Of a DNA stretch of 34,317 nucleotides, positions 31,308 through 34,317 are shown piece by piece (the stretch's first letter is position 1; every line of letters starts with the position of its first letter). The stretch is from Sneathiella sp. (GTDB taxonomy: Bacteria > Pseudomonadota > Alphaproteobacteria > Sneathiellales > Sneathiellaceae): contig JAIOYL010000013.1 in NCBI GenBank assembly GCA_021741195.1, forward strand, positions 1-34,317, written 5' to 3'. The position numbers and the translations under genes were made by a program. The notes below the pieces were generated by a model that saw only the letters and a program-made list of their open reading frames with translations, was not told the DNA's origin and made no database searches.

Positions 31308-31383
<76 letters not shown>

Positions 31384-31701
31384 ACCCCCCTCACGGGGGG
31401 AAATTCCCTTAATTATTTGATTTCAATATCTTTAATATTTCGACTGATCCGGTTTGGCGATACAGTTGAAGTGCGAAAGACATGGCTAAAATTCCGGGAT
31501 TATACAACGCGGCAAAAAATGGAATTTAAGAATTGTCATCCCTAAGGACATTTTAGACGCGAATTCGAGTCATACAGAAATCTGCCAATCAATTGGCACT
31601 TCCGATCATGCAGAAGCAAAACAACTAGGGTGTGAACTCAATTCTATCTCTTGATTTTCTGCGGTATTTTTGATTCAAGGCTTCTAAAAGAGGAGCATTG
31701 A

Positions 31702-31815
31702 ATGGCACGATTTGATCTGAGCGATGAAGAATGGGCGATTATTGAGCCGTTATTACCCCGGCATGGTCGGAGTCCTGCGCGGTCAGGCGGCACTGATCAC
31801 CTTAGAGCACAATAA
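31702..31815 (+). pseudogene. IS5-family transposase remnant, truncated after about 30 codons
   Basis: ATG at 31702 reads MARFDLSDEEWAIIEPLLPRHGRSPARSGGTDHLRAQ*; the first ~25 aa are typical of IS5-type transposases and then diverge to an early stop. Confidence 0.75.
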
Positions 31816-31909: not shown

Positions 31910-32260
31910 TTGGCAAAAGTTCGGCGAAAATTAAACTGGCGCGGAAAAGGCGTAGGCATTTTCATGGCTCTTGCTTTTGCGCTTAATATTTTTGCGGTCA
32001 TGCCTGCTGCCGAAAGTCACGAAAAAGGCGAAGACGCCTCTCATCATATGATCTCGGCGACAGGCGATTTCTCCAAGGCCCCGGCGAAGTCGCACCATAA
32101 TCATATGGAGAAATGCGGCGTTGCTTCCTGTGCGATTGGGTTGCCAGCTTACTTCTCCGTTACGACAACTGCATTCGGGACGAAAACACCGTTTAATACA
32201 ATCGTCGCACAAGTGACGTTGCGCCATCTCACTCCTCTGGACCGCCCACCAAAAAATTAG
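31910..32260 (+). CDS. CutF-like small exported His/Cys-rich protein (candidate copper-sensing leader protein)
   Basis: 116 aa from TTG 31910 (in-frame TAG at 31904); basic N-terminus + hydrophobic segment (GVGIFMALAFALNIFAVMPAA), His/Met/Cys cluster SHHNHMEKCGVASC, C-terminus TPLDRPPKN; directly upstream of copper proteins. Confidence 0.65.
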   Translation: MAKVRRKLNWRGKGVGIFMALAFALNIFAVMPAAESHEKGEDASHHMISATGDFSKAPAKSHHNHMEKCGVASCAIGLPAYFSVTTTAFGTKTPFNTIVAQVTLRHLTPLDRPPKN

Positions 32261-32409
32261 TTCCTATTTAAGGCAGTGAACAATCACGGAGCGTTGCCGT
32301 GTTTGTATTCCCTTGCCTTACCCAATTCTCAATATTGAAAATCGAACCTGTCTCCAGGCCAGAAGTCTTTGGCCAATGCCCTGCATGCGGAGACTTGATT
32401 AGGAACTAA
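32257..32409 (+). promoter_or_regulatory. Candidate translational control element: helix TTAGTTCCTA / TAGGAACTAA joining the upstream ORF stop codon to the cupredoxin Shine-Dalgarno
   Basis: 32257-32266 is the exact reverse complement of 32400-32409 (10 bp); extends past one T.T mismatch with 5 more pairs (32268-32272 / 32394-32398, one G.U). Contains stop TAG (32258-32260) and SD AGGA (32401-32404). Confidence 0.65.
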
Positions 32410-32412
32410 ACA

Positions 32413-32970
32413 ATGAAGATTAAGCGTACATTCTTGTCCGGTGTTGCCGGAGTAACCCTCACAACTGTTTTGGCCTTGAGCTCTGCGATTGCTTTGGCAT
32501 CCGGTACTCATCATGGCGGTCATGGCGAGAAATCCGCCATTGGCGTTCCCGGCGAAGCGGTGGACGTCACGAGAACCATCGACGTCAAGATGCATGACAA
32601 TTATTACGAACCGGAAGAGATTGCCGTCAAAAAGGGAGAAACCGTTCGCTTCAAGATCGTGAACGCGGGCGAGCTCGTTCATGAGTTCAATATCGGCACC
32701 GCAGCCATGCATGCGGGGCATCAGAAGGAAATGATGATGATGATGAAGCATGGAGTGCTGGAAGCCGACAAGATAAACCGCGGCATGATGAAGATGGATA
32801 TGGGAAATGGCAAAACCATGGAACATAACGATCCGAACAGTACGCTGTTGGAGCCCAAGGAATCTGCCGAAATTATCTGGAAATTCACGGATGATGCCGA
32901 GCTGGAGTTCGCCTGCAACGTTCCTGGTCATTACGCCTCCGGGATGATGGGCGACGTTCACTTTGAATAA
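32413..32970 (+). CDS. Cupredoxin domain copper-binding protein, Met/His-rich
   Basis: 185 aa; signal peptide, VRFKIVNAGELVHEFNIG and CNVPGHYASGMMGDV supply His, Cys, His, Met type-1 copper ligands; Met-rich insertion HAGHQKEMMMMMKHG. Confidence 0.88.
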   Translation: MKIKRTFLSGVAGVTLTTVLALSSAIALASGTHHGGHGEKSAIGVPGEAVDVTRTIDVKMHDNYYEPEEIAVKKGETVRFKIVNAGELVHEFNIGTAAMHAGHQKEMMMMMKHGVLEADKINRGMMKMDMGNGKTMEHNDPNSTLLEPKESAEIIWKFTDDAELEFACNVPGHYASGMMGDVHFE

Positions 32971-33033: not shown

Positions 33034-34317
33034 ATGAGAAGATCATTTATGCAGGCCCTTCAGCTCGGAGTTTTGGCCACTGCAGTTGCTTTAATCATCC
33101 CGGCTTCAAGCATTGCGGGAACCTATGATCTGACGGTCGACAGGGTTGTTATCGATACCGGCGACTTCCAGAAGGAAGGGATCGGGTATAATGGTAAATC
33201 GCCGGGACCCGTTCTCCGGTTCGAAGAAGGCGAAGATGTCACCATCAATGTGACGAATAATCTTGATGAATCCACGTCAATCCACTGGCACGGTCTTATC
33301 CTCCCCTTCCAGATGGATGGTGTGCCAAAAATCAGTTACCCCGGAATTGCGCCCGGCGAGACCTTTACCTACAATTTTCCGGTCAAGCAATCCGGCACCT
33401 TCTGGTTCCATAGTCATTCCGGCTTTCAGGAACCGGATGGCGCCTATGGAGCGATTGTGATTGAGCCGAAAAAACGGGACCCTTTTCGCTTCGATAAGGA
33501 CTATGTTGTCCAGTTCACCGACACCCACCCGCATTCGGGAAAACGGATCTTGCGTAACCTGAAAATGACTGCGGATTACTACAATCGAAAACAGCAAACC
33601 CTGGGTGACTTCTTTTCCGACGTCAGCAAAAACGGCTTCGACGCCACCGTCTCGGACAGAATGGCTTGGGGCGATATGCGGATGATGCCGACAGATATTG
33701 AGGATGTGCAAGGCTTTACGCCGCTTATTAACGGCAAAGGGCCCGAACAGAACTGGACAGGTCTTTTTGAGCCCAGGGAACGTATCCGCCTGCGGCTCAT
33801 TAATTCATCCGCCATGACTTATTTCGACGTCCGCATTCCCGGCCTCAAAATGACGGTTGTGGCAGCGGATGGAAACAACGTGCAGCCCGTCACTGTCGAT
33901 GAACTTCGCCTGGGCGTTGCCGAGACCTATGACGTGATTGTGCGGCCCATGGAGGACAAGGCCTATACCATCTTCGGCGCGAGCATGGGCAGGACGGCTT
34001 ATGCGAGGGCCACTCTCGCGCCGCGTGACGGCATGGTGGCTGAAATCCCGGACATGACGGCGAGCCCCCTCCTTACGATGGCGGACATGGGCATGGATCA
34101 TGGCAATATGGCCGGAATGGATCATAGCAGCATGAAGAGTATGGATCAGTCGCCAATGAAGGGAATGGACCATTCCAATATGAAAGGAATGGATCAGGAG
34201 GAAGACAGTTTTTATGCAAATGGCAGCGGTCTTGTTCCCGCAGCGGCAAATGGCGGCAAGTTCCTCTCATACGCGGACCTCAAGGCACAGAAACCTCTCT
34301 TTGCGGACCGGGAAGCC
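33034..34317 (+). CDS. copA: CopA-type multicopper oxidase, copper resistance (C-terminus beyond window)
   Basis: Open reading frame from ATG 33034 to the right edge (428 codons, no stop): RR-containing signal, [61 protein letters not shown], Met-rich region. Missing from the ORF track because it is truncated. Confidence 0.93.
34078..34200 (+). repeat. Degenerate in-frame Met-rich repeats in the multicopper oxidase
   Basis: [41 protein letters not shown]: recurring GMDHxxMK units (ATGGAYCAT...ATGAAR). Confidence 0.85.

Follow-up and report, generated by a model that had tools for sequence, protein, structure and literature searches.

The window analyzed here, a 34,317-nt stretch of Sneathiella sp. 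DNA, carries at its end, on the forward strand, a leader ORF followed by copI and copA. The leader (the copI upstream ORF; 31910..32260) begins with TTG and encodes 116 amino acids, with a basic N terminus and then a hydrophobic segment resembling an export signal (a conserved arrangement, read from the sequence alone), a Cys motif, C69-G-V-A-S-C74 (codons at 32114..32131), which we propose to bind metal, and a Pro-Pro C terminus, in which Pro113-Pro114 (32246..32251), the proposed arrest site, lies 39 residues past Cys74. Its stop codon, TAG (32258..32260), is followed after a gap of 152 nt by copI (32413..32970; ATG at 32413), encoding an exported Met/His-rich cupredoxin that matches Cupredoxin_1 and Copper-bind. 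This product is CopI-like, matching NCBIfam NF051440 (CopI) with an E-value of 2.5e-55 and a score of 187 bits, under the equivalog cut-off of 280; a search of the PDB with the copI sequence gave no match. copA (33034..34317), encoding a copper-resistance multicopper oxidase, passes the TIGR01480 cut-off (506 bits; cut-off, 479) despite being truncated by the contig end. The original prediction had placed a cupredoxin first and a multicopper oxidase after it, as is indeed the case, and its coordinates for the leader ORF, the TAG, both arms of the helix described below, and the copI ATG were exact to the base. Upstream of the operon are a tRNA-Ala (31308-31383), a truncated ORF (31490-31654) matching DUF6538 (E 8.8e-7), which we take to be a domain typical of the tyrosine integrase N terminus, and the beginning of an IS4/5-type transposase (31702-31812; match below the cut-off); the operon seems to adjoin remnants of an integrated element (31308-31812).

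The end of the leader and the start of copI are complementary to each other. The left arm, TTAGTTCCTA (32257..32266), which holds the TAG, is the perfect complement of the right arm, TAGGAACTAA (32400..32409), which holds the AGGA Shine-Dalgarno (SD) sequence of copI (32401-32404). A 211-nt fold of this region had an energy of -60.4 kcal/mol, compared with a mean of -46.0 for shuffles (S.D. 4.1; z -3.5, with 0/200 shuffles as good) and contained the 10-bp stop-to-SD helix that had been predicted, closing a structure with further hairpins at 32269..32320 and 32350..32394, the second of which (GTCTCC ... GGAGAC) adjoins the SD and has the same stem letters in close relatives. The helix had also been thought to continue past a T.T mismatch (32268-32272 with 32394-32398): this extension exists as sequence, with five pairs, one of them G-U, but the minimum-energy fold puts 32269-32276 in the first internal hairpin. 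No Rfam family matched the region at E <= 1. An attenuator was considered and rejected, the only terminator-like hairpin being a weak one with a poor T tail (32285-32301) and hairpin counts being near the shuffle expectation.

In individual folds, most loci showed pairing of the leader end and the copI SD, the letters differing between loci. The arm pairs TTAGTTCCTA/TAGGAACTAA, TAATTTGATATC/GATATCAAATTA, CTTGATC/GATCAAG, CCTGAAAATAAT/ATTATTTTCAGG, and GTCTCCTGAA/TTCAGGAGAC have changed letters while keeping complementarity, and in GTTTTATTCC/GGAATAAAAC the helix is lengthened, both arms being longer. Fixed-column covariation, looked for in a MAFFT alignment of the most closely related loci, was little informative; because close relatives share arms and distant ones shift register, we relied on a permutation of partners. 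The sample comprised 86 loci (20 from the genus and 66 of 80 from contigs of other genomes), reduced to 51 non-redundant clusters, and the duplex energy between 42 nt around the leader stop and 27 nt around the copI start was computed for each own pair and for permuted partners, all energies reported here being those of isolated duplexes or short local RNA stretches. Own stop x SD pairs averaged -14.3 kcal/mol versus -10.2 for permuted ones (z -10.9, 0/20,000), a test that takes the clusters as independent, some of which share ancestry below the similarity threshold. The excess was found both in Sneathiella (z -5.1, 13 clusters) and in the other genomes (z -8.6, 38 clusters). The copI starts of distant loci were picked by an SD rule that could favor G-rich windows, which the permutation retains, and a few leaders, among them candidate L068, may be misassigned. 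The pairing is thus conserved in relatives through wholesale compensatory change, as the original prediction required.

Sliding windows centered the pairing excess on stop x SD; it vanished when the left window lay at least 30 nt upstream or, with one exception, when the right window lay at least 18 nt into copI. Right-arm windows within copI at +108 and +135 gave low raw energies with a small self-specific excess (z -1.6 and -3.4, respectively), and these energies mostly reflect composition, the z of -3.4 remaining unexplained. In a same-operon control of 37 loci, the copI stop paired with the copA SD at z -1.6 and the leader stop with the copI SD at z -9.8. Overlap of the helix with the stop codon had been called unusual; it is instead the usual arrangement, seen in 28 of the 38 strong helices, and 36 of these 38 reach into the stretch that a ribosome with the first proline in its P site would cover. 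Pairing is weak (weaker than -13 kcal/mol) in 13/51 clusters, e.g. L064, L073, and L019. In leaders with long tails beyond the Pro-Pro (L056, L092, L096, and L105), most of the arm lies before the stop and nearer the prolines, a pattern that so few cases can only suggest. In L015, L016, and L116, the left arm takes in the Pro-Pro codons themselves (CCTCCT...), which would then double as arrest-motif codons and anti-SD.

Several comparisons indicate that the leader is a coding gene. Twenty copI copies occur in 18 of 25 Sneathiella genomes, and each of the 20 has in front of it an ORF that carries a Cys motif and ends in Pro-Pro; at 66 of 80 copI loci of many other, mostly alphaproteobacterial, genomes, too, an ORF with a Pro-Pro end lies upstream. 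Purifying selection acts on this ORF, pairwise dN/dS being about 0.14-0.30 in nine of ten comparisons and 0.64 in one mosaic pair. Among 14 aligned leaders, the invariant residues are His37, Glu67, Cys69, Gly70, Cys74, Pro109, Pro113, and Pro114, the Cys motif and the Pro-Pro end dominating the invariant and near-invariant positions, and most closely related Sneathiella-type loci have the TTG start at the same codon. The distance from the last motif Cys to the Pro-Pro is 39 residues in 13/13 Sneathiella-type clusters, and in 45 of all 51 clusters it falls within 37-43, whereas the tail beyond the Pro-Pro can be as short as two or as long as about nine residues; this fixed spacing despite a variable tail fits the Pro-Pro, and not the C terminus, as the reference point.

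A leader profile search within the genus gave significant E-values only for copI-linked copies, searches at family and order level gained one further genome, and a tblastn comparison of the leader with plasmids gave no match. The leader is not universal upstream of copI: it was found in a few of nine gammaproteobacterial genome loci inspected, and no copI leader was found in the Hydrocarboniclastica and P. mandelii plasmids. The Azospirillum oryzae plasmid NZ_CP054622.1 carries at 824-1228, where no gene is listed, an unannotated copI leader ORF (L125) with the end ISPPRRPPKARA. Some Sneathiella leaders are mosaic: in L006 and L010, the N-terminal half is shared with L051 and the C-terminal half with L012, as though a recombination point lay between the sensor and arrest regions. 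L051 itself comes from contig NZ_CAKMNW010000073.1 of Candidatus Nitrotoga sp. M5, by name a betaproteobacterium; its copI is 83% identical to that of the window, and its leader ends in HHLTPLDRPPKI, nearly the C terminus of the window leader, which may reflect either horizontal transfer or contamination.

By Pfam, the 116-aa ORF is not a DUF2946 protein: it had no match to DUF2946 (PF11162) or to any other Pfam or NCBIfam model above a cut-off, its genome gave no PF11162 match, and among 14 relatives only one matched PF11162 (E 0.0043). Nor does it have the CXXC and RAPP motifs with 45 intervening residues of DUF2946/CruR proteins, having instead C-x4-C, DRPP, and a Cys-to-Pro-Pro distance of 39. 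By contrast, the window ORF fits the published rule-based description of CutF-like proteins (PMC9973294) in being shorter than 150 aa, in having Pro-Pro in the last 15 residues (P113-P114 of 116), and in having copI 152 nt downstream, with copA next; its basic N terminus and hydrophobic segment may correspond to the N-terminal signal peptide of that description. As with Rhodobacter capsulatus CutF, an RNA structure masks the downstream SD, according to the prediction and the comparative evidence. The ORF does not have the CxxxC of R. capsulatus CutF, although variant Cys motifs were accepted for CutF-like proteins in the 2021 paper (PMC8456105). Profile comparison linked most copI-leader groups, mainly over the region from the Cys motif to the Pro-Pro (e.g. 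probabilities of 96 for Sneathiella/Thalassospira and 93 for Thalassospira/PPPR group), and gave no sequence link between the Minwuia leader group and the others.

In the literature consulted, the experimental work on copper-sensing nascent-chain leaders has resolved only two, whose outputs differ: SD unmasking for CutF (PMC9973294) and Rho termination for CruR (PMC9426467). In R. capsulatus, copper-dependent translation of cutO requires the CutF signal peptide, Cys motif, Pro-rich end, and an SD-hiding stem-loop (PMC9973294). The window locus shares with cutFOG (PMC9973294, PMC8456105) a small Cys-motif protein, here putatively exported, with C-terminal prolines ahead of a periplasmic copper-defense gene, an RNA structure masking the downstream SD, and a similar Cys-to-Pro-Pro spacing (42 in CutF, as computed here from published residue numbers, and 39 in the window leader), but it differs in having C-x4-C instead of CxxxC, copI and then copA downstream instead of cutO and then cutG, and a gap of 152 nt with a multi-branched RNA instead of 40 bp with a simple stem-loop. 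CruR of Bordetella pertussis (PMC9426467), a DUF2946 protein for which arrest has been shown (PMC12992588), is likewise a copper-responsive leader with a Cys motif, Pro-Pro near the C terminus, and a long intergenic region, the copper response being on our side a proposed one; it differs by its RAPP and CXXC motifs, its 45-residue spacing, Rho-dependent termination, and the lowering of expression by copper. CopL of Xanthomonas, likened here by description only, is a cis-acting small ORF on which copper-regulated expression of a downstream copA multicopper oxidase depends, and the discussion in PMC9973294 describes no RNA mechanism for it. In SecM, MifM, VemP, and ApdP, a stalled leader ribosome likewise uncovers where the following gene starts, but these leaders monitor protein export, not metal, and use other arrest motifs.

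Our results make it probable that the locus is a CutF-like, nascent-chain-controlled translational switch in which a ribosome stalled at the Pro-Pro opens the copI SD. When no ribosome is at the leader end, the stop-codon region would, as the comparative evidence and folding indicate, pair with the copI SD, some 140 nt further downstream, and close a multi-branched RNA that masks the copI start site. With the Pro-Pro in the ribosome active site, the presumed geometry would place the Cys motif just out of the tunnel, in or beyond the translocon, where copper bound to it may, by analogy with R. capsulatus CutF, lengthen the pause. The paused or terminating ribosome would then sit on the left arm, freeing the SD for translation of copI and then copA. 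We infer the copper dependence, its sign, and the stalling from the published work on CutF and CruR (PMC9973294, PMC9426467). In the window, the modeled cost of opening the SD is 10.2 kcal/mol in the free RNA and 2.4 with a ribosome at the stop; masking the leader through the stop codon, which approximates a ribosome at the Pro-Pro, gives 5.0, and masking only to 18 nt before the stop-codon end leaves the cost unchanged. Over the 51 clusters, the mean cost falls from 7.1 to 4.35 kcal/mol (Wilcoxon p 2.6e-8), and masking a comparable stretch elsewhere gives a smaller drop (mean 6.3 kcal/mol). Stalling-driven opening has been argued to be probably limited to short intergenic regions (PMC9973294), which counts against the switch; the gap here is 152 nt, bridged in our folding model by the long-range helix. 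Also counting against it are the weakly pairing clusters and the leader C terminus, D-R-P-P-K-N, which is not the demonstrated RAPP arrest motif. The CutF-like interpretation of the original prediction is supported in part, namely for its RNA half, by the conserved pairing, the selection on the leader, and its Cys-motif and Pro-Pro residues.

The helix would by itself suffice for plain translational coupling, any ribosome at the stop opening the SD, with the leader setting stoichiometry or ordered expression and sensing no metal; we consider this unlikely, as it leaves unexplained the invariant Cys motif, Pro-Pro end, and near-fixed spacing in very divergent leaders, as well as their exclusive linkage to copI. 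The related leader architecture, and an intergenic region of 162 nt in CruR, near the 152 nt here, would also be compatible with control as it operates in CruR (PMC9426467), where copper relieves a C-terminal leader stall and Rho terminates transcription between the leader and the next gene. Such control, however, neither requires nor explains self-specific stop x SD pairing and would have copper turn off a copper-defense operon, and the window ORF lacks CXXC, RAPP, and a DUF2946 match, so that we give it little weight.

It is very improbable that the leader protein instead serves CopI/CopA as a periplasmic copper chaperone, with the RNA pairing being incidental. A chaperone was the initial proposal for CutF (PMC8456105), and the leader is a small, putatively exported Cys/His-rich protein, but the stop x SD pairing is strongly selected, and with CutF, trans-complementation failed and a stem-loop mutation made the protein dispensable (PMC9973294). 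Scarcely credible at all is that the complementarity is an artifact of composition, Pro codons (CCT/CCC) being inherently anti-SD-like: the left arm does include the Pro-Pro codons in the lineages of L015, L016, and L116, but as the main explanation composition is refuted by the permutation, which keeps all arms and swaps only partners, by the loss of the signal on shifts of about 20-30 nt, and by the negative same-operon control.

Self-specific stop x SD pairing also appeared, so far as a preliminary result, in DUF2946 (CruR-type) leaders. In 24 non-redundant DUF2946 loci of the same class, with start codons chosen automatically, the leader end paired with the SD of the next gene with a z of -5.3 at the stop and of -7.0 at 10 nt before it, a signal that fades out some 40 nt upstream; the published CruR model, on the other hand, has no such pairing. 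Within this set (L165-L194), L170 and L176 each reach -24 kcal/mol for stop x SD. One Sneathiella genome (G041) carries both a copI leader (L021) and, elsewhere, a true DUF2946 leader (L194), and the two leader types are therefore distinct genes in one cell.

The novelty lies in a closing helix that reaches from stop codon to SD over about 150 nt, and in how generally it occurs. The main text of the 2023 CutF paper (PMC9973294) does not use the words cupredoxin, plastocyanin, or Copper-bind, and we found no account of a copI leader or such a helix in the literature searched, which covered few subscription journals. We regard as evenly balanced the broader proposal that the stop-codon-to-SD helix is a shared output device of metal-sensing nascent-chain leaders, comprising the divergent copI-leader family and the DUF2946/CruR type, in which a terminal anti-SD, in some lineages the Pro-Pro codons themselves, would bridge up to about 150 nt or more and a stall would mean "on," the metal setting the sign by lengthening or relieving it. 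The output rule, a leader end complementary to the next SD, is readable from sequence and holds over dozens of divergent operons, and it may aid in finding and annotating such leaders, e.g. the unannotated one in the Azospirillum plasmid record. It widens SD unmasking to include long intergenic regions and implies a second layer in DUF2946 operons; if the pairing there holds, the Rho-based CruR model would gain an SD-masking layer in these bacteria, and a stalled ribosome as the "on" state would be common to both leader types.
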